A stretch of DNA of 64,000 nt from Emcibacter sp. SYSU 3D8 (GTDB lineage: Bacteria; Pseudomonadota; Alphaproteobacteria; SMXS01). The first letter of the stretch is position 1. Every line of letters begins with the position of its first letter. The stretch covers positions 62,001-126,000 of the forward strand of contig NZ_JBBYXK010000005.1 in the NCBI RefSeq assembly GCF_039655875.1, given 5' to 3'. The notes beneath the pieces are model-generated. The model ran no database searches and was not told the DNA's origin. It saw only the letters and a program-made list of their open reading frames with translations. The position numbers were made by a program, and so were the translations under genes. Of the stretch, positions 1,047-8,286 are shown one piece after another.

Positions 1047-2198
1047 ATGAGCTTTGGCGAGGGCGGCGTTCAGGTCGCCGAGGTCACCACGAAGGCTGAC
1101 CTCGAAGCTTTCATCGACGTTCCCTGGACCATCTACCGGGGCGATCCCTATTGGGTGCCGCCGTTGCGGTTCGAACGGCGCGACATGCTGAACCGGGACA
1201 AGAACCCCTACTTCCAGCACGCCGAGGCCGCCTATTTCATCGCCCGCATGGACGGCCGGCCTGTGGGACGCATCAGCGCCCAGGTGGATCAGCTTGCCCA
1301 GACCCACCAGGGTCCGGGCACCGGCCATTTCGGTTTCCTGGAAGCCGTCGACGACCCGCTGGTATTCGACGCCCTGTTCGAGGCCGCCGAGACCTGGCTG
1401 CGCGAGCGCGGCATGACCCGGATCATCGGTCCGTTCTGCCCGTCGATCAACGAGGAGTCCGGCCTGCTGGTCGAAGGCTTCGATGAGCCGCCGCGGGTGA
1501 TGATGGGCCATGCGCGGCCGTATTACGGCGAACACGTGGAAGAGTTGGGATACGCCAAGATCCAGGACCTGTGGGCCTACGACCTGAACATCACCCACGA
1601 ATTCCCGGCCAGCGTTCAGCGCATCCTGGCCAAGGCCCGCAAGCAGGAGAAGCTGAAGCTTCGCCGGATACGCAAGAAGGACTTCGACAGCGAGTTGAAG
1701 ATCATCATCGATATCTTCAACGACGCCTGGCAGGACAATTGGGGCTTCATCCCCATGACCGAAGCCGAGATCGAGAAGATGGGCAAGGACCTGAAGCCGT
1801 TCATCAAGGAACAGGGCTGCATGATCGCCGAATGGGACGGCGTGCCCACGGCCTTCATGCTGACCGTGCCCGACATCAACCAGGCCGCCGCCGACCTCGA
1901 CGGCAACATGCTGCCGTTCGGCTGGGCAAAGCTGGCCTGGCGCCTGCTGGTGAAATCGCCGACCCGCTGCCGGGTGCCGCTGATGGGCGTGCGCCAGCAA
2001 TTCCAGGGCACCCTCGCCGGCGCGTCCATGGCGCTGCTGATGATCGAGGAAATCCGCACGGCAACCGTCAAGGAAGTGGGCTACCGCCGCGCCGAATTGT
2101 CATGGATCCTGGAAAGCAACGTGCCCATGCAGCGCATTCTGGAGATGATCTTGTGCCGGCATTACAAGACATACCGGATGTACGAGAAGACGCTGTAG
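1047..2198 (+). CDS. GNAT-like N-acetyltransferase (YghO-like)
   Basis: A 383-residue soluble protein resembling the YghO-type GNAT-fold family of uncharacterised acyltransferases. Recognisable segments are the N-terminal VPWTIYRGDPYWVPPL, the central IIGPFCPSINEESGLLVEGF, and the C-terminal AELSWILESNVPMQRILE typical of the second half of these proteins. No substrate is known to me. The ATG at 1047 is preferred because it sits 5 bases after the hydroxylase stop; an upstream in-frame ATG at 972 would overlap that gene by 70 bases. The arrangement suggests a two-gene operon, perhaps involved in lipid modification (inference). Confidence 0.75.
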   Translation: MSFGEGGVQVAEVTTKADLEAFIDVPWTIYRGDPYWVPPLRFERRDMLNRDKNPYFQHAEAAYFIARMDGRPVGRISAQVDQLAQTHQGPGTGHFGFLEAVDDPLVFDALFEAAETWLRERGMTRIIGPFCPSINEESGLLVEGFDEPPRVMMGHARPYYGEHVEELGYAKIQDLWAYDLNITHEFPASVQRILAKARKQEKLKLRRIRKKDFDSELKIIIDIFNDAWQDNWGFIPMTEAEIEKMGKDLKPFIKEQGCMIAEWDGVPTAFMLTVPDINQAAADLDGNMLPFGWAKLAWRLLVKSPTRCRVPLMGVRQQFQGTLAGASMALLMIEEIRTATVKEVGYRRAELSWILESNVPMQRILEMILCRHYKTYRMYEKTL

Positions 2199-2275
2199 AG
2201 CCGGCGCCGGCCACTTTCTGGATTTTCTGACGCAGCAACTTCCCCACCGGCCCGCGGCAAGCGCGGCCGGCACCA

Positions 2276-2303
2276 TTGTCGTATCGAAATAATCTGATAT
2301 GCT
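2276..2303 (+). promoter_or_regulatory. Candidate sigma-70-type promoter of the secreted protein gene
   Basis: TTGTCG at 2276-2281 and TATGCT at 2298-2303 are separated by 16 bases. Each matches the consensus hexamer at 4 of 6 positions. The predicted start of transcription, near 2310, leaves a short leader before the GGGGGGAGA ribosome-binding site and the ATG at 2331. Confidence 0.3.
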
Positions 2304-2330
2304 TTGGACATACTCCGGGGGGAGACATCC

Positions 2331-5036
2331 ATGAGCAATGCCATCAAGTGGCCCCTGCGTGCAGTTGCTGCTGCTCTCTGCATCCTGGCGGTTGGCGCCG
2401 TGCCGCGGCCTTCCACCGGGCAGATGCCGCCGGTTCCCCAGCCGATCATGTCCAACCCGAACGAGGTTGGATCGGCCGGCGACCGGACGGACAAGAAACC
2501 ATCTCCTCCCCCGAGCACGAACGACACGAGCACGAACGACACGCGCGCCAACAATGAGAGTGGCGCCAGCGGCGCGTCCGTGCCGGACAACGTCGCACGA
2601 GGGTCGGATTCGGCGGCGCCGGTAGCGGTCCCGTTCACGGCGGTGGCGGATACCTCCAGGCCGAACCGGACAACGGCCGCGCCGGCAAAGAAGATCTGCC
2701 CCAAGAAGCCACAGCCGATCATCGTCGGCTCGAACGGCAAGGTGGGCTCGGGCGCGCGCGCCAAGGCGAAGGCCATCTCGACCCTGTCGGGGCTGGCTGG
2801 CGGCCTGCTCGGCGGTGGCGGCGGCAGCAAGGGCAAAGGCAAGGGCGGCCCGCCCCTGGTCAAGTGCAAGATCAAGAACAAGGAAATGACCGTGTTCACC
2901 GATCCGGGAACCGGCATATCCCTCAAGGTCGGCGCCAAGCAGGCCGGCGATTCGGTGAATGTCATCGCCGAGGTGTCAAAGTCGCGGGACAACGGCACCT
3001 TCCAGACCGCCTATATGAACCCTCCCGGCGAATCTCCCCAGGCTCCCCAGGAGGTTGGCATCTGCGGCCTGTGGGGCGAATGGTCGCTGAGCGTCTCGTG
3101 GACCAAGACCACCTATGTGGATGGCCAGAAGGTCAGCGAGGAATCGGGCGGCTATTCCCGGGCCGGAAACTTCAACATTCCGGGTACCGTGTCATCGGAC
3201 CAGGCGCCCGCCGGCTTATGGAAGCAGTTGGGATTCTCCAACGCCTCCCACGGCGCCCGGGAAATTCTCATGCGGTACCGGCCGCCGGCCGCGCTCGACG
3301 CCGGCCAGCCGGTCAACATGGTGATCCACGTCACCCGCCCCGGCGAGGACCCGGTCACGACGGTGCCATTCAACCTGCTGATGACCAGGACGCCGAAGGG
3401 CTTCATGTTCCAGCAGGCGCCCGATGAAGAGTGTCCGGACGATATCGGTGGCACGCAAACGGCGGTCAACGACAACGGCGGCGCGGGCGAACCGCAACCG
3501 CAGGGAGAGGGCGGGCAAGGAACATCGCCTCCGGCCGGAACCGGCACGGCTGTTGCACCCGGATCGCCAGGATCAGGCACTGCCGGGACCGGGACAACCG
3601 GTGCTGCGGGCAATGCCTCGGCCGCCGCGAAGGATCCCTGCGAGGAGCATCTGCGGCGCGCCAGGGACCGACTCAAATCCCGGCCGAAGGGCGGCGACGA
3701 TTCACTCGAGGCCATGCGTGAGCGCGCATCGCAGGAGGCGGACATCGCCCGCGGCATCGCCGGCGATGCGAGCCGGGCGCGCTACGACCTGGAGGACGCG
3801 GAACGCAAGGCCGAAGACGCCCAGCGAGAGGCCGACTTCCGCAAGGGTCTCTACGACAAATTCGGCACGCACCAGAAAGGCCAGACAAGCGCCTATGGCG
3901 ATCTGGCGGATTCGGCACGGGCCATGGGGGCCGACATGGAGGCCCGTGCGGCGGAGGCGGAAAGGCGCGCCGCCAACTGGGACGAGGCTGCCAAGCGGTA
4001 CGACAAGATCGCAGAGACAACCGACGACCCAAGTCTCGCCGACGCTGCAAGGCAGGCGGCGGACAACGCGCGGGAAGACGCTGGCGCGCTCAGGGACACG
4101 GCGGCGGACAACCGGAAACAGGCGAAGGAAGACTACGACCGCGCCGGCCAGAGAGAACAGTCGGGCGACAGGATCCAGGCCGACACCGACAAGATGGAGA
4201 AGGATGCCCAGGAGGCCGCCCGCGCGGCGGCCGACGCCAGGGCGCTGGCGGAGTGCCTCAAGCGGGCCGTGGCAGAGCTGGACAAGATGGCGGCGGCACA
4301 GGCGCAGGCCGCACAGGCGGCCGCCGAGGAACTTGCCCAGCGCCCGCCAGATCCGCCGAAGGAGAGCGACGATACGCCGCCCGGCGATGGATCGACCACC
4401 GGCCCCTCGCTGCCTCCGGCCAGTGGCCCCAGGTCGCTGCCGCTGGCGACCGGGAGCGCCCAGTCCAGCATCGCTGCCGTAAGCGCCATGGGTTCGTGCC
4501 CCTGGCCGACCGGCAAGGTCAGCCTCCATCTGGTCGACGCCGATGTGTATACGCCGATATTGTATGGCACCAGCGACACCTTCACCGACCTGGCCGACAT
4601 CGTGGCTCAGGTGAAGGCCAAGGTGGCGCCCCACTACGATCCCCAGGCGCTCTGCGGCAAGTGTCTCCAGCAACTGGATATCTGGGGTCATGGCGATACG
4701 GGCGGCGGCTATATCAGCTTCGGCCCCAACGATGCCCAGATCGGCAAGACCCCAATGGGCGCCAATTTCGACCAGAACCTGGCCGCGCTGGGCGGTTTGA
4801 TGTGCGTCGGCGGCAAGGTGGTGATCAACCAGTGCAAGGCCGGCACGGGCACGAAAGGCACTGACGCCCTGCAGGCCCTGTCCGACAAGATCGGCGTCAC
4901 GGTGGCCGGGCCAACCGACGCAATAAAGGGCTGCCGGATCTTCGGCGGGGCGCTGACCAGCTACAAGGAGCAGACACCCGGCCCCAACGCGAAGACGCCG
5001 GACAAGAACGAGGCGGGACCTGTCGAGACCGAGTAG
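2331..5036 (+). CDS. Large secreted protein with coiled-coil region and apparent caspase-like (clan CD) C-terminal domain
   Basis: A 901-residue protein I cannot name. A basic N-terminus and hydrophobic stretch (about residues 6-23) form a likely Sec signal peptide. A Pro/Ser/Thr/Asn-rich linker reaches about residue 150 and includes a Gly/Lys-rich patch. Residues 175-370 look like a beta-rich domain. About 435-675 is alanine- and charge-rich helix, predicted coiled coil. A Pro/Ser linker leads to a C-terminal domain from about 720. There LDIWGHGD (His787-Gly788) and VVINQCKAG (Cys835) follow beta-strand-like segments, the His-Gly then Cys layout of DUF4347 and caspase-fold peptidases. The start at 2331 has a strong ribosome-binding site. 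The gene stands alone, convergent with its downstream neighbour. Peptidase activity is inference; it could be a non-catalytic relative. Confidence 0.7.
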   Translation: MSNAIKWPLRAVAAALCILAVGAVPRPSTGQMPPVPQPIMSNPNEVGSAGDRTDKKPSPPPSTNDTSTNDTRANNESGASGASVPDNVARGSDSAAPVAVPFTAVADTSRPNRTTAAPAKKICPKKPQPIIVGSNGKVGSGARAKAKAISTLSGLAGGLLGGGGGSKGKGKGGPPLVKCKIKNKEMTVFTDPGTGISLKVGAKQAGDSVNVIAEVSKSRDNGTFQTAYMNPPGESPQAPQEVGICGLWGEWSLSVSWTKTTYVDGQKVSEESGGYSRAGNFNIPGTVSSDQAPAGLWKQLGFSNASHGAREILMRYRPPAALDAGQPVNMVIHVTRPGEDPVTTVPFNLLMTRTPKGFMFQQAPDEECPDDIGGTQTAVNDNGGAGEPQPQGEGGQGTSPPAGTGTAVAPGSPGSGTAGTGTTGAAGNASAAAKDPCEEHLRRARDRLKSRPKGGDDSLEAMRERASQEADIARGIAGDASRARYDLEDAERKAEDAQREADFRKGLYDKFGTHQKGQTSAYGDLADSARAMGADMEARAAEAERRAANWDEAAKRYDKIAETTDDPSLADAARQAADNAREDAGALRDTAADNRKQAKEDYDRAGQREQSGDRIQADTDKMEKDAQEAARAAADARALAECLKRAVAELDKMAAAQAQAAQAAAEELAQRPPDPPKESDDTPPGDGSTTGPSLPPASGPRSLPLATGSAQSSIAAVSAMGSCPWPTGKVSLHLVDADVYTPILYGTSDTFTDLADIVAQVKAKVAPHYDPQALCGKCLQQLDIWGHGDTGGGYISFGPNDAQIGKTPMGANFDQNLAALGGLMCVGGKVVINQCKAGTGTKGTDALQALSDKIGVTVAGPTDAIKGCRIFGGALTSYKEQTPGPNAKTPDKNEAGPVETE

Positions 5037-5078
5037 CCGCGCCGCGCCGGGGCCTGGCTCTGCCGATCCGGTCGACCG

Positions 5079-5552
5079 CTAATATGCCCCGCCCAGCTTG
5101 GTGTGATCCCAGCTGATGGTTTTCACCGGTGTGAACCGGATGATCACCCGCTTGCGCGCCGAATAGCGGATGCCGTCCATCTCCTCGTCCGGGAAGTCCT
5201 GCTTCGACGGATCGCGCTGGCGGCGGATGTTCATCATGGTTTCGACGACGAAGTCGTTGTCATCGATGATCTCGGCCGTGGCCTCGGCCATCATGGACTG
5301 AAGCTCGGCATAATCGTGGCCGGCTTCGATCAGCAGCGCGGCCTTGGGATCGCGCCGCAGGTTCACGACCTTCTGGCTGGTCCCATAGGTCGAGACCAGG
5401 AAGCGGCCCTGCTCGTCATAATAGAAGAACATGGGCATGGGATGGGGGAAGCCGTGCGGGCCGTTGGAGACGATGATCAGCGTGTGCTCGCGCAGGATGA
5501 ACGCCTTGAGCTCGTCGGGTGTCATGGTGATCTGGTCGCGCCGTGATGCCAT
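5079..5552 (-). CDS. Pyridoxamine 5'-phosphate oxidase-family flavin-binding protein
   Basis: A 157-residue split-barrel protein of the PNPOx-like superfamily. Visible features are the opening helix TPDELKAFILREHTLIIVSNG, followed by GFPHPMPMFFYYDEQGRFLVSTY and the RDPKAALLIEAG strand typical of TIGR-type PPOX-class enzymes. These bind FMN, F420 or heme. The specific substrate is unknown; the residues around the expected phosphate contact do not settle it. The ATG at 5552 begins 4 bases after the stop of the NTF2-like gene, so the two are likely co-transcribed. Confidence 0.75.
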   Translation of the reverse strand: MASRRDQITMTPDELKAFILREHTLIIVSNGPHGFPHPMPMFFYYDEQGRFLVSTYGTSQKVVNLRRDPKAALLIEAGHDYAELQSMMAEATAEIIDDNDFVVETMMNIRRQRDPSKQDFPDEEMDGIRYSARKRVIIRFTPVKTISWDHTKLGGAY

Positions 5553-5556
5553 GGGA

Positions 5557-5985
5557 TCAGTCCTTCGCGGGTTTGAAGCTCGACAGGCCCACATAGACCA
5601 GCATCTCGGTGATCAGGCCTTCGTCGTTGCAGGTGATGACGTTGGCGCTCTCGACGTCGAGCGGCTGGCCGTCGGCTGAGACCCGGGCGATCGAGCAGGC
5701 GAGCGCCCGGTTGCCGGCAACCCGCGCGGCGCCCTCGGGCCGCATGGAAATGCTCCCGCCGGAGGCACCAAGCGCGGCCGTGTAGCGGGCGCGGATGGCG
5801 TCATGGCCAATGGACGGAGCAGAGCCAACCGGCTCTTCCCAACGCGCATCGGGCGCGAACAGGGCGACGATCCCGTCAACATCGCCTGCGCCCATCAGAT
5901 CGCGGTAGCGGTCGAAGATGCCATGCATGTGCGCATCGCCCGGCTTCTTCGCCAATCCGCCGAAAATTTTCTCAAGCCGAGACAT
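5557..5985 (-). CDS. SnoaL / NTF2-like protein, possible steroid delta-isomerase
   Basis: A 142-residue NTF2-fold protein. The core MHGIFDRYRDLMGAGDVDGI followed by ALFAPDARWEEPVG resembles ketosteroid isomerase-like SnoaL proteins, in which a Tyr and an Asp act in proton transfer; a Tyr (DRYRDL) and an Asp (FAPDARW) are present. The later VYVGL strand fits the family. Such proteins isomerise, hydrate or simply bind small hydrophobic ligands, so the function is open. It is the first gene of a two-gene unit with the PNPOx-like gene, and lies next to an SDR. Confidence 0.7.
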   Translation of the reverse strand: MSRLEKIFGGLAKKPGDAHMHGIFDRYRDLMGAGDVDGIVALFAPDARWEEPVGSAPSIGHDAIRARYTAALGASGGSISMRPEGAARVAGNRALACSIARVSADGQPLDVESANVITCNDEGLITEMLVYVGLSSFKPAKD

Positions 5986-6049
5986 GGTCCCTCCCGTCCG
6001 CAGTGCTTCCTGTCTCCGGCCTATAGGAGCGCCGGGCGCTTTTCAACGC

Positions 6050-6844
6050 CTACAGCGCCGTGCCCACCACGCCGCCTTCGACCAGCATGGCCGCGCCGGT
6101 TGTCGCCGATGCCTGTGGCGAGCAGACATAGACGACCATGTTGGCGACTTCCTCGGGCGTGGTGAAGCGGTGCAGGATCGAGGTTGGCTTCTGGGTCTTT
6201 AGAAAGGTCTCGCCGAACGCCTCCGGCGTGATGCCCTGCTTCTTCGAAACCGCATTGACGAAACCGCCAACCGCGCGGGATGTGGTCGGGCCAGGCAACA
6301 CGGAATTGACCGTGACACCGGTCCCTGCCGCCGACTCGGCAAGACCGCGGGCCAGCGCGATCTGGGCCATCTTGGTGGTGCCGTAATGGACCATGTCCCT
6401 GGGCACACGCTGGGCCGATTCCGACGAGATGAATACGATCCGGCCCCAGTTCCGCGTCAGCATGCCCCCCATATAGGCGCGCGACATGCGCACCCCCGAC
6501 ATGACGTTGGTCTCCCAATAGCGGGTCCACTCCCCGTCGGCCAGATCGAGAAAGGGCGAGGCGGAAAAAGTGGCCACGTTGTTGACGAGAATATCGACGT
6601 CCTTCACGACGGCCGTGACGGCGGCGCAGCCGTCCGCGCCGGATATGTCGGCGGCCACGCCGCGCACCGAAACGGCGGGATAAGCCGCGCCAAGCTCGCT
6701 CACCGCCTGATCCACCGCCGCCTGTGTTCGGCCGTTGACCACGATATCCGCGCCCGCCCCGGCCAGACCCTCAAGGATCGCCCGGCCGATTCCGGCCGTC
6801 GAACCGGTCACCAGCGCGGTCTTGCCGCCCAGATCGATACGCAT
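6050..6844 (-). CDS. Short-chain dehydrogenase/reductase (SDR)
   Basis: A 264-residue classical SDR. The cofactor motif TGSTAGIG is at about residues 14-21, NNVA replaces the usual NNAG, and the catalytic Ser is in FISSES with the Tyr/Lys pair in HYGTTK. The family oxidises or reduces alcohols and ketones with NAD(P). VNGRT after the second strand, with Arg at its end, leans towards NADP (inference). The ATG at 6842-6844 follows a GGGGAGA ribosome-binding site. The gene is transcribed in the same direction as the NTF2-like gene about 64 bases downstream. The substrate cannot be read from the sequence. Confidence 0.85.
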   Translation of the reverse strand: MRIDLGGKTALVTGSTAGIGRAILEGLAGAGADIVVNGRTQAAVDQAVSELGAAYPAVSVRGVAADISGADGCAAVTAVVKDVDILVNNVATFSASPFLDLADGEWTRYWETNVMSGVRMSRAYMGGMLTRNWGRIVFISSESAQRVPRDMVHYGTTKMAQIALARGLAESAAGTGVTVNSVLPGPTTSRAVGGFVNAVSKKQGITPEAFGETFLKTQKPTSILHRFTTPEEVANMVVYVCSPQASATTGAAMLVEGGVVGTAL

Positions 6845-7065
6845 GATGTCTCCCCTTCGGTTGCCGCCCGGAGGGTACCGCGTTGGCCATCCGGGAACCA
6901 CCGGCTTGCGCTGCCGCGCCGGGTCCCGTATGGGATGCCGTCTTTCGTGCCTTGACGCGGCTTTCTGTCTCGAAGCGGAATTCTTGATTCCGCCCCATAC
7001 CCGGCGCAATCTGCCAAGATTCGCAACCACTTGTGAAGGAAATCCATGGGTCAGGAACCAGCTTG

Positions 7066-8286
7066 ATGACAGCCGCCACGCCACAGGCGCCGGAGAGGTA
7101 CGAGGTGTTGGACGGGCTGCGTGGCTACTTCCTGGTCTTCATGCTGCTCAATCACCTGTCCTTCCAGTACAGCTATTTCCTGGTGAAGGTGAATCACGGC
7201 GAATTGGGCTTCGTTCAGGACGCGCAGGGTTTCGTGTTCCTGTCGGGCCTGCTGATCGGCATGGTCTATGCCGGCCGCATGACATCGCGCGGGTTGCTGG
7301 CGACCGGGACGATCATGTGGCGCAGAGCCCTCGAATTGTTCGTATACGCGGTTTCCTGCCTGGCGATCATCCTGGTTCTCGCGCGTCTGCTGCCATCCGC
7401 CCAGGCGGCATGGAAACCCTGGCTCGGGGATCTGCTGGGCGGCGGCCCCGCCTACAAGGTGGCGGCGCTGTTCCTGCTCTATCAGCCGACCTACATGGAC
7501 ATTCTGCCGCAATATATCGTCTATCTAATCGCCGCGCCGCCGTTGCTGTGGCTGTGCGTACACGGCAAGTGGCACTGGATGGCGATCGGCTCGGCGCTGC
7601 TGTGGTTCTGCGTGCAGATCGGCTTTCACCTGCCCTTGAGCGGCTATATCGACGATGCCCTCGACAGCGCCAAGGGCGGCCTGGCCATGCGCACCACCTT
7701 CAATATGCTCGCCTGGCAGATCGTGTTCATGGGCGGCATGGTGCTGGGCACGCTGACGCGCCGGGGCACCATCGACTGGCGCGGGGTATTCAGCCCGGGG
7801 CGCCGTGTACTGATGAACGCATCGCTGGCCGTCGTGGTCTTCTTCATGTGCATCAAGCTTGGCTGGACCGCGGGCCTGTTGCCGGCCGAGATGCTGGCGC
7901 GGTTCGGCGAATTCAACAACCGTCCCGAGTTCAGCACGGTCTATCTCTTGAATTTCGCGGCGCTCGCTTATCTCGTAGGCTGGCTGCTGACCGCCGGGCC
8001 GCAGTCTTCCAGGCGGTTCGAAAGACTTGTCGGCGCGCTGCTGAACCGCCTGTTCAGGCTGCGCTTCCTGCGCCTGTTGGGACGCCATTCGCTACAGGTC
8101 TATGCCTGGCATGTGGTGCTGGTCTATCTGCTTGCCGCACTCGACCGCCAGACCGGGCCGCTGGACGAACTGGTCAAGAACCTGCTGGCGGTGATGGCGG
8201 TTGCCGCACTGGCGCTTCCGGCGTTGTGGCGCGAGCGGCGAGCCATCTTCAGCGCCGAGCCTGACCTGGCCTCGGCCAAACCCTAG
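7066..8286 (+). CDS. OpgC-like membrane acyltransferase family protein
   Basis: A 406-residue polytopic membrane protein matching the OpgC family, relatives of acyltransferase family 3 that decorate periplasmic glucans with succinate. The N-terminal signature YEVLDGLRGYFLVFMLLNHL is the first transmembrane helix with the family's DGLRG motif. Further hydrophobic segments follow at about 56-76, 90-120, 165-205 and 235-255, with several more to 400. ATG 7066 is preferred, with AGGA about 10 bases upstream. No glucan synthesis genes (opgG/opgH) lie nearby, so the acceptor is unknown. Its TAG stop shares four bases (CTAG) with the convergent recG stop. Confidence 0.75.
   Translation: MTAATPQAPERYEVLDGLRGYFLVFMLLNHLSFQYSYFLVKVNHGELGFVQDAQGFVFLSGLLIGMVYAGRMTSRGLLATGTIMWRRALELFVYAVSCLAIILVLARLLPSAQAAWKPWLGDLLGGGPAYKVAALFLLYQPTYMDILPQYIVYLIAAPPLLWLCVHGKWHWMAIGSALLWFCVQIGFHLPLSGYIDDALDSAKGGLAMRTTFNMLAWQIVFMGGMVLGTLTRRGTIDWRGVFSPGRRVLMNASLAVVVFFMCIKLGWTAGLLPAEMLARFGEFNNRPEFSTVYLLNFAALAYLVGWLLTAGPQSSRRFERLVGALLNRLFRLRFLRLLGRHSLQVYAWHVVLVYLLAALDRQTGPLDELVKNLLAVMAVAALALPALWRERRAIFSAEPDLASAKP

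Follow-up and report, generated by a model that had tools for sequence, protein, structure and literature searches.

A caspase-like C-terminal domain, divergently related to DUF4347, on a probably exported coiled-coil protein of Emcibacter sp. SYSU 3D8

A 64,000-nucleotide stretch of Emcibacter sp. SYSU 3D8 DNA (contig NZ_JBBYXK010000005.1, positions 62,001 to 126,000 of the forward strand; hereafter the window, whose coordinates are used below) carries a gene at 2331-5036 on the plus strand that encodes a protein of 901 residues. Its C-terminal domain (approximately residues 721-880; 4491-4970, plus strand) is very probably a divergent relative of DUF4347 (PF14252) with a caspase-like fold; as read from its sequence, the domain has a somewhat better than even prospect of being an active peptidase. 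The explanation we favor, with moderate confidence, is that the protein is an exported, tethered caspase-like cysteine peptidase. A paper-library search turned up 4 papers under DUF4347 and none under PF14252, and the one solved member that was found is only a putative protease. A compact C-terminal DUF4347-like domain that retains its dyad, in a protein that is probably exported, would offer a simple test of extracytoplasmic protein cutting by this fold. This analysis upholds the idea of the initial annotation and adds to it a connection with a DUF4347 effector domain of solved structure, the pattern of cysteines, the gene's accessory status, and the modular family.

The initial annotation read the motifs LDIWGHGD and VVINQCKAG as a His/Cys dyad in a clan CD/DUF4347 pattern, and both residues stand where it placed them: His787 (codon 4689-4691, plus strand) and Cys835 (codon 4833-4835, plus strand), 48 residues apart. 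Searches at the taxonomic levels of family and of order covered 10 genomes each. Matches occurred in 4/10, all within the window's genus, and the close family comprises five C-terminal domains: that of the window, one from G007, two from G005, and one from G002, the last four being 73-77% identical to the window domain. His787, Cys835, and their flanks are invariant in all five, window included, whereas loss of either residue in homologs had been named at the outset as grounds for abandoning the dyad. DUF4347 was the sole Pfam family reported for each of these domains, with matches considered at E-values (E) up to 10. The reverse search with a close-family profile (A1) took in 385 class genomes and 398 phylum genomes (sets that overlap in part; E ≤0.001 per genome), and seven of its eight distinct matches beyond the genus were DUF4347 domains above the curated Pfam cut-off of 24.6 bits; the eighth, L076, is not DUF4347. 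Profile-profile comparison (hhalign) of A1 with 18 DUF4347 domains (A2) gave a probability of 91 and E 1.1e-6, with the His and Cys in register. A2 held 18 of 25 DUF4347 places, after exclusion of L022, which has a stop, of the partial L030, and of L039-L043, dropped to limit the size of the set. Together, the reciprocal profile searches and the hhalign match place the proposed DUF4347 pattern beyond chance. A joint alignment of 23 domains (A3) combined 17 from A2, without the near-duplicate L019, with L030 and the five close-family domains. Here the His is present in 21/23 rows and the Cys in 22/23, among the few nearly invariant columns, and the SHG/AHG and YGC of proteobacterial DUF4347 domains align with the GHG and NQC of the window protein. 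L030 itself (1369-1830, plus strand, in G156) is a short, divergent DUF4347 domain that scores 31.9 bits against the 24.6-bit cut-off and retains GHG and GC.

Residues 711-901 were modeled from a seven-row alignment. In model residues 41-150, ten-residue blocks averaged 61-83 on the predicted local distance difference test (pLDDT), except for block 91-100, at 52. Strand 68-79 has His787 (model residue 77) close to its end, and strand 114-125 ends at Cys835 (model residue 125), in a model whose overall pLDDT was 60. The top Foldseek match in the PDB was 9qpe_G, the DUF4347 domain of Tce1 (PA0256) from Pseudomonas aeruginosa (E 1.5e-3), and structural alignment with VIA-align gave this chain Z 10.2 (root-mean-square deviation 2.9 over 126 residues), against 6.3 for the next row. 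Chain 9qpe_G was deposited as a DUF4347 protein, and DUF4347 profiles also find it by sequence (E 2.3e-5 and 1.2e-5). Its His/Cys pair is in register with that of the window protein through the joint DUF4347 profile; counted from domain start 110, the profile columns fall on His186 and Cys240, the dyad named in the available portion of PMC13323088. Lower VIA-align rows included SAVED-CHAT (6.3), Craspase TPR-CHAT (4.9-5.5), C11 (5.0), drICE (4.7), and legumain (4.4); such scores may reflect merely a common arrangement, and only Tce1 exceeded Z 8. The spacing of 48 can be set beside 54 in Tce1, 50 in Tce2, and 45 in TcdB (available portion of PMC13323088) and 42 in caspase and 46 in PmC11 (available portion of PMC4357240). 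The latter source also describes the PmC11 His near, and the Cys at, strand ends, as in the present model. Likeness to CHAT proteins and to clan CD peptidases such as caspases, C11, and legumain consists of similar His-Cys spacing and weak fold matches (Z 4.4-6.3), but the window protein gave no Pfam row for such families at E up to 10. The caspase-like reading of the tail is supported, and the fold model, of modest confidence, agrees with it.

Several observations weigh against this assignment. The direct Pfam match of the C-terminal domain to DUF4347 scored 21.8 bits (E 1.8e-4; 18.3 bits for the whole protein), below the curated cut-off, and spanned only positions 47-128 of the 164 in the profile; three whole homologs matched at E 0.009-0.022. 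It is because of the score under the cut-off that the domain is called a divergent relative of DUF4347 and not a member. The model as a whole reached a pLDDT of 60 and a predicted template modeling score of 0.62, no PDB match attained E ≤0.001 by Foldseek, and Foldseek rows 2-50 were dehydrogenases, flavodoxins, and other non-caspase folds (E 0.04 or worse). The clan CD chains in VIA-align were intermixed with receiver and Rossmann-like chains of similar score. The alignment behind the model included five DUF4347 rows, which leaves the Tce1 match partly dependent on them, and a PDB sequence search with the close-family profile alone missed Tce1 at E up to 10. Three PDB rows from that profile search look like chance. 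An unrelated alpha/beta domain that happens to carry GHG and NQC would account for the subthreshold Pfam score, for the non-caspase folds in the Foldseek rows, and for their scores near those of clan CD in VIA-align, but it is very improbable given the reciprocal profile searches, the profile-profile match, and the gap between Tce1 and the next VIA-align row. The initial annotation had proposed comparison with DUF4347, CHAT, gingipain, and metacaspase families, and inspection of a predicted structure for a caspase fold. On the first count, only DUF4347 answered, below its cut-off; CHAT, gingipain, metacaspase, C11, C14, C25, and C80 gave no Pfam row at E up to 10, a range in which HMMER filters discard most weak matches above E ~0.1, and the whole-protein rows were DUF4347 and a single DUF2383. 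We take it that Pfam models exist for CHAT, C11, C14, C25, and C80. On the second, a solved DUF4347 domain was the best match, on a model of modest confidence. A scan of NCBIfam returned nothing but rows of coiled-coil type, none better than E 0.35.

Activity is a separate matter from fold. Among the 18 other DUF4347 rows of A3, residues aligned to the His787 and Cys835 columns are His in 16 and Cys in 17; L020 lacks the His and L035 lacks both, which also counts against a peptidase. A catalytically dead caspase-like fold, retained for peptide binding or structure, would fit these losses, and caspase-domain repeats without catalytic residues are described in the available portion of PMC3482391. 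We nevertheless regard it as unlikely, since the His, the Cys, and their flanks are unchanged across a close family whose other four domains differ from that of the window by about a quarter of their residues (73-77% identity). In the peptidase reading that we prefer, Cys835 would be the nucleophile and His787 its base, and the domain would cut a protein substrate or itself.

The remainder of the protein suggests how such a domain might be presented. A probable Sec signal peptide (residues 1-30; 2331-2420, plus strand) would be followed by a flexible linker, a beta-rich module, a coiled coil, a second flexible linker, and the C-terminal caspase-like domain. The signal peptide, claimed in the initial annotation, stands as probable from an N-terminus read by eye; the proteins from G007 and G002 and the second from G005 likewise begin with a hydrophobic stretch. 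Residues 31-115 (2421-2675, plus strand) form a low-complexity, fast-changing linker by sequence and by comparison with G007. Over residues 1-115, identity to G007 is 43%, with a ratio of nonsynonymous to synonymous substitution rates (dN/dS) of 0.52, and in the beta-rich module (approximately residues 116-375; 2676-3455, plus strand) identity is 84%. That the module is rich in beta-strands, as annotated, found weak support: when residues 116-379 were modeled from the single sequence, regular structure was nearly all strand, at a pLDDT of only 44, and Pfam gave a lone Big_4 row below its cut-off. The annotated coiled coil held up as far as it was tested, with hydrophobic-residue periodicity over residues 456-690 (3696-4400, plus strand) peaking at 3.48, a value reached by 0/500 shuffles. 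The protein would probably be exported by the Sec route, the beta module and coil may anchor or multimerize it, and the peptidase domain would then be tethered either periplasmically or extracellularly. As a module, the C-terminal domain occurs on different fronts: the second G005 copy, which retains the beta module, differs at its N-terminus and lacks a coil ahead of the domain, and the G002 protein shares the C-terminal domain only.

Autoprocessing is one alternative to the cutting of other proteins by a tethered peptidase. The domain could cleave its own chain, for example in the low-complexity linker that precedes it (residues ~691-720), and so free itself or the part in front of it; according to the available portion of PMC3482391, processing can be a function of caspase-like domains in secreted bacterial proteins. 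The domain is last in the chain here, however, and no common cut site is visible by eye because the sequence before the domain varies among homologs, so that we consider autoprocessing improbable. The cysteines raise a further idea. Six are invariant in the close family (5/5), namely Cys835 and those at 723, 775, 778, 825, and 868. They include a CGxC pair that precedes His787 by nine residues (CGKC in the window, residues 775-778; 4653-4664, plus strand), which is present in 5/5 close-family rows and 0/18 other DUF4347 rows of A3. The subthreshold score, the CGxC pair, and the six invariant cysteines set the window domain apart from other DUF4347 domains, as does its position, since in several loci that were read DUF4347 lies toward the N-terminus of a long frame. 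Some of the five invariant cysteines other than Cys835 may form disulfides. More speculatively, and with little probability in our estimate, the protein would be a redox-gated exported protease, in which CGxC and the other invariant cysteines switch or stabilize the active site in the oxidizing periplasm; the domain would then be one of several interchangeable ends within a mosaic family of exported beta-module and coiled-coil proteins.

Another possibility is that the protein is an effector directed at other cells, whose C-terminal protease-like domain would be the active part. In the available portion of PMC13323088, Tce1 and Tce2 are called putative cysteine proteases because they resemble TcdB. 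Tce2 harms yeast, with toxicity relieved when its predicted active site is mutated; Tce1 is not toxic in yeast, a result that weighs against the peptidase reading, and neither markedly affected Escherichia coli. A C-terminal-most position has been linked to caspase-like toxin domains (available portion of PMC3482391), the gene, itself accessory, evolves faster than its neighbor, and the genome has one Hcp gene. Tce1, however, is a 310-residue cargo of the type VI secretion system carried inside Hcp3 rings, with a C-terminal DUF4347 domain (available portion of PMC13323088), whereas the window protein has 901 residues, a likely Sec signal, a beta module, and a coil, and such a protein would be ill-suited as Hcp cargo. 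No partner or immunity gene was recognized among the five window neighbors scanned by Pfam, with small open reading frames (ORFs) and some of those flanking the gene in G007 and G005 unannotated. This weighs little, because tce1 and tce2 also have no obvious immunity genes alongside in the available portion of PMC13323088. An effector role appears quite unlikely to us. For the exported, tethered peptidase that we favor, the gene would seem to act without a neighboring partner, and its patchy presence in the genus would fit an accessory exported factor. In the genome of the window (G000), Hcp and secretin each give a single match that clears its cut-off (G000:C1:232453-232770 and G000:C3:477173-477676).

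The annotated frame is open and complete, running from ATG 2331 to a stop at 5034-5036, with a likely ribosome-binding site, GGGGGGAG, at 2317-2324 (plus strand) ahead of the ATG; no sigma-70-like promoter was found in window 1900-5400. Homologs span residues 1-899 in G007 (69%) and G005 (66%). The full-length G005 copy (L004, G005:C33) has one internal TGA in its front part and is otherwise open, which would be either a broken gene or an assembly error. Purifying selection acts on the gene, and its sequence evolves as protein-coding, since dN/dS against G007 is 0.26 for the whole protein and 0.17 within residues 715-895, a region that gives 0.24 in comparison with the first G005 copy. The synonymous rate (dS) against G007 is 0.86 over the gene and 0.55 in the beta module, compared with 0.42 for the neighboring ORF 1041-2195, and these higher values hint at a separate history for parts of the gene, with saturation possible.

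The gene is accessory within the genus. It is flanked by ORF 972-2198, which has no Pfam match, and by a stretch with PNPOx, SnoaL_2, SDR, and OpgC; further neighbors are presumably recG, sdhE, and mfd. The neighbors were traced by tblastn in six other genomes of the genus. A hydroxylase, ORF 1041-2195, PNPOx, and recG were present in 6/6, SDR in 5/6 (not G004), sdhE and mfd in 5/6 (the G006 contig is short), OpgC in 3/6, and SnoaL in 2/6. The gene itself occupies this site in three of the seven genomes (G000, G007, and G005) and had no tblastn match there at E 1e-8, the level at which absence was called, in G003, G004, G006, or G002. Where it is missing, the flanking matches lie ~10 bases apart in G003, ~750 in G006, and ~850 in G004. 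At window 5079-8286, the order and presence of PNPOx, SnoaL, SDR, and OpgC vary among genus members. The second G005 copy had no common neighbor among five nearby genes, and three proteins each, searched against PADLOC (E ≤0.01) and PHROGs (E ≤0.1), gave no match.

Beyond the genus, DUF4347 was present in 12/190 sampled genomes of the class. Plasmids gave no match to the C-terminal domain at E 0.01, and no close relative of it turned up in viral contigs. Single canonical DUF4347 domains as queries also returned nothing, whereas alignments of canonical domains recovered DUF4347 loci L051-L055 and L082; L080, L081, L083, and L084 are repeats of loci already in the set. When viral proteins were searched by fold, no match reached E 0.001, and a few viral caspase rows stood among the weak ones.

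The beta module also has other partners: five other proteobacteria (G341, G383, G619, G411, and G481) have it in proteins that show no DUF4347-like match, each with a helical or coiled part by eye. A weak match in G250 (E 4.5e-4, with an internal stop) was taken as spurious. Ten genes beside the beta-module genes of these five genomes included no common neighbor. The G481 gene (L091 7343-8344, minus strand) adjoins an OmpA/DUF4892 gene, which hints at an outer-membrane or periplasmic setting. The tail of the G383 protein (L093 4838-6688, minus strand; run on L048) matches the last 38 positions of the Secretin profile at E 8.3e-5, below the cut-off, and the G341 protein (L092 4195-6225, plus strand) has a tail that appears secretin-like by eye.
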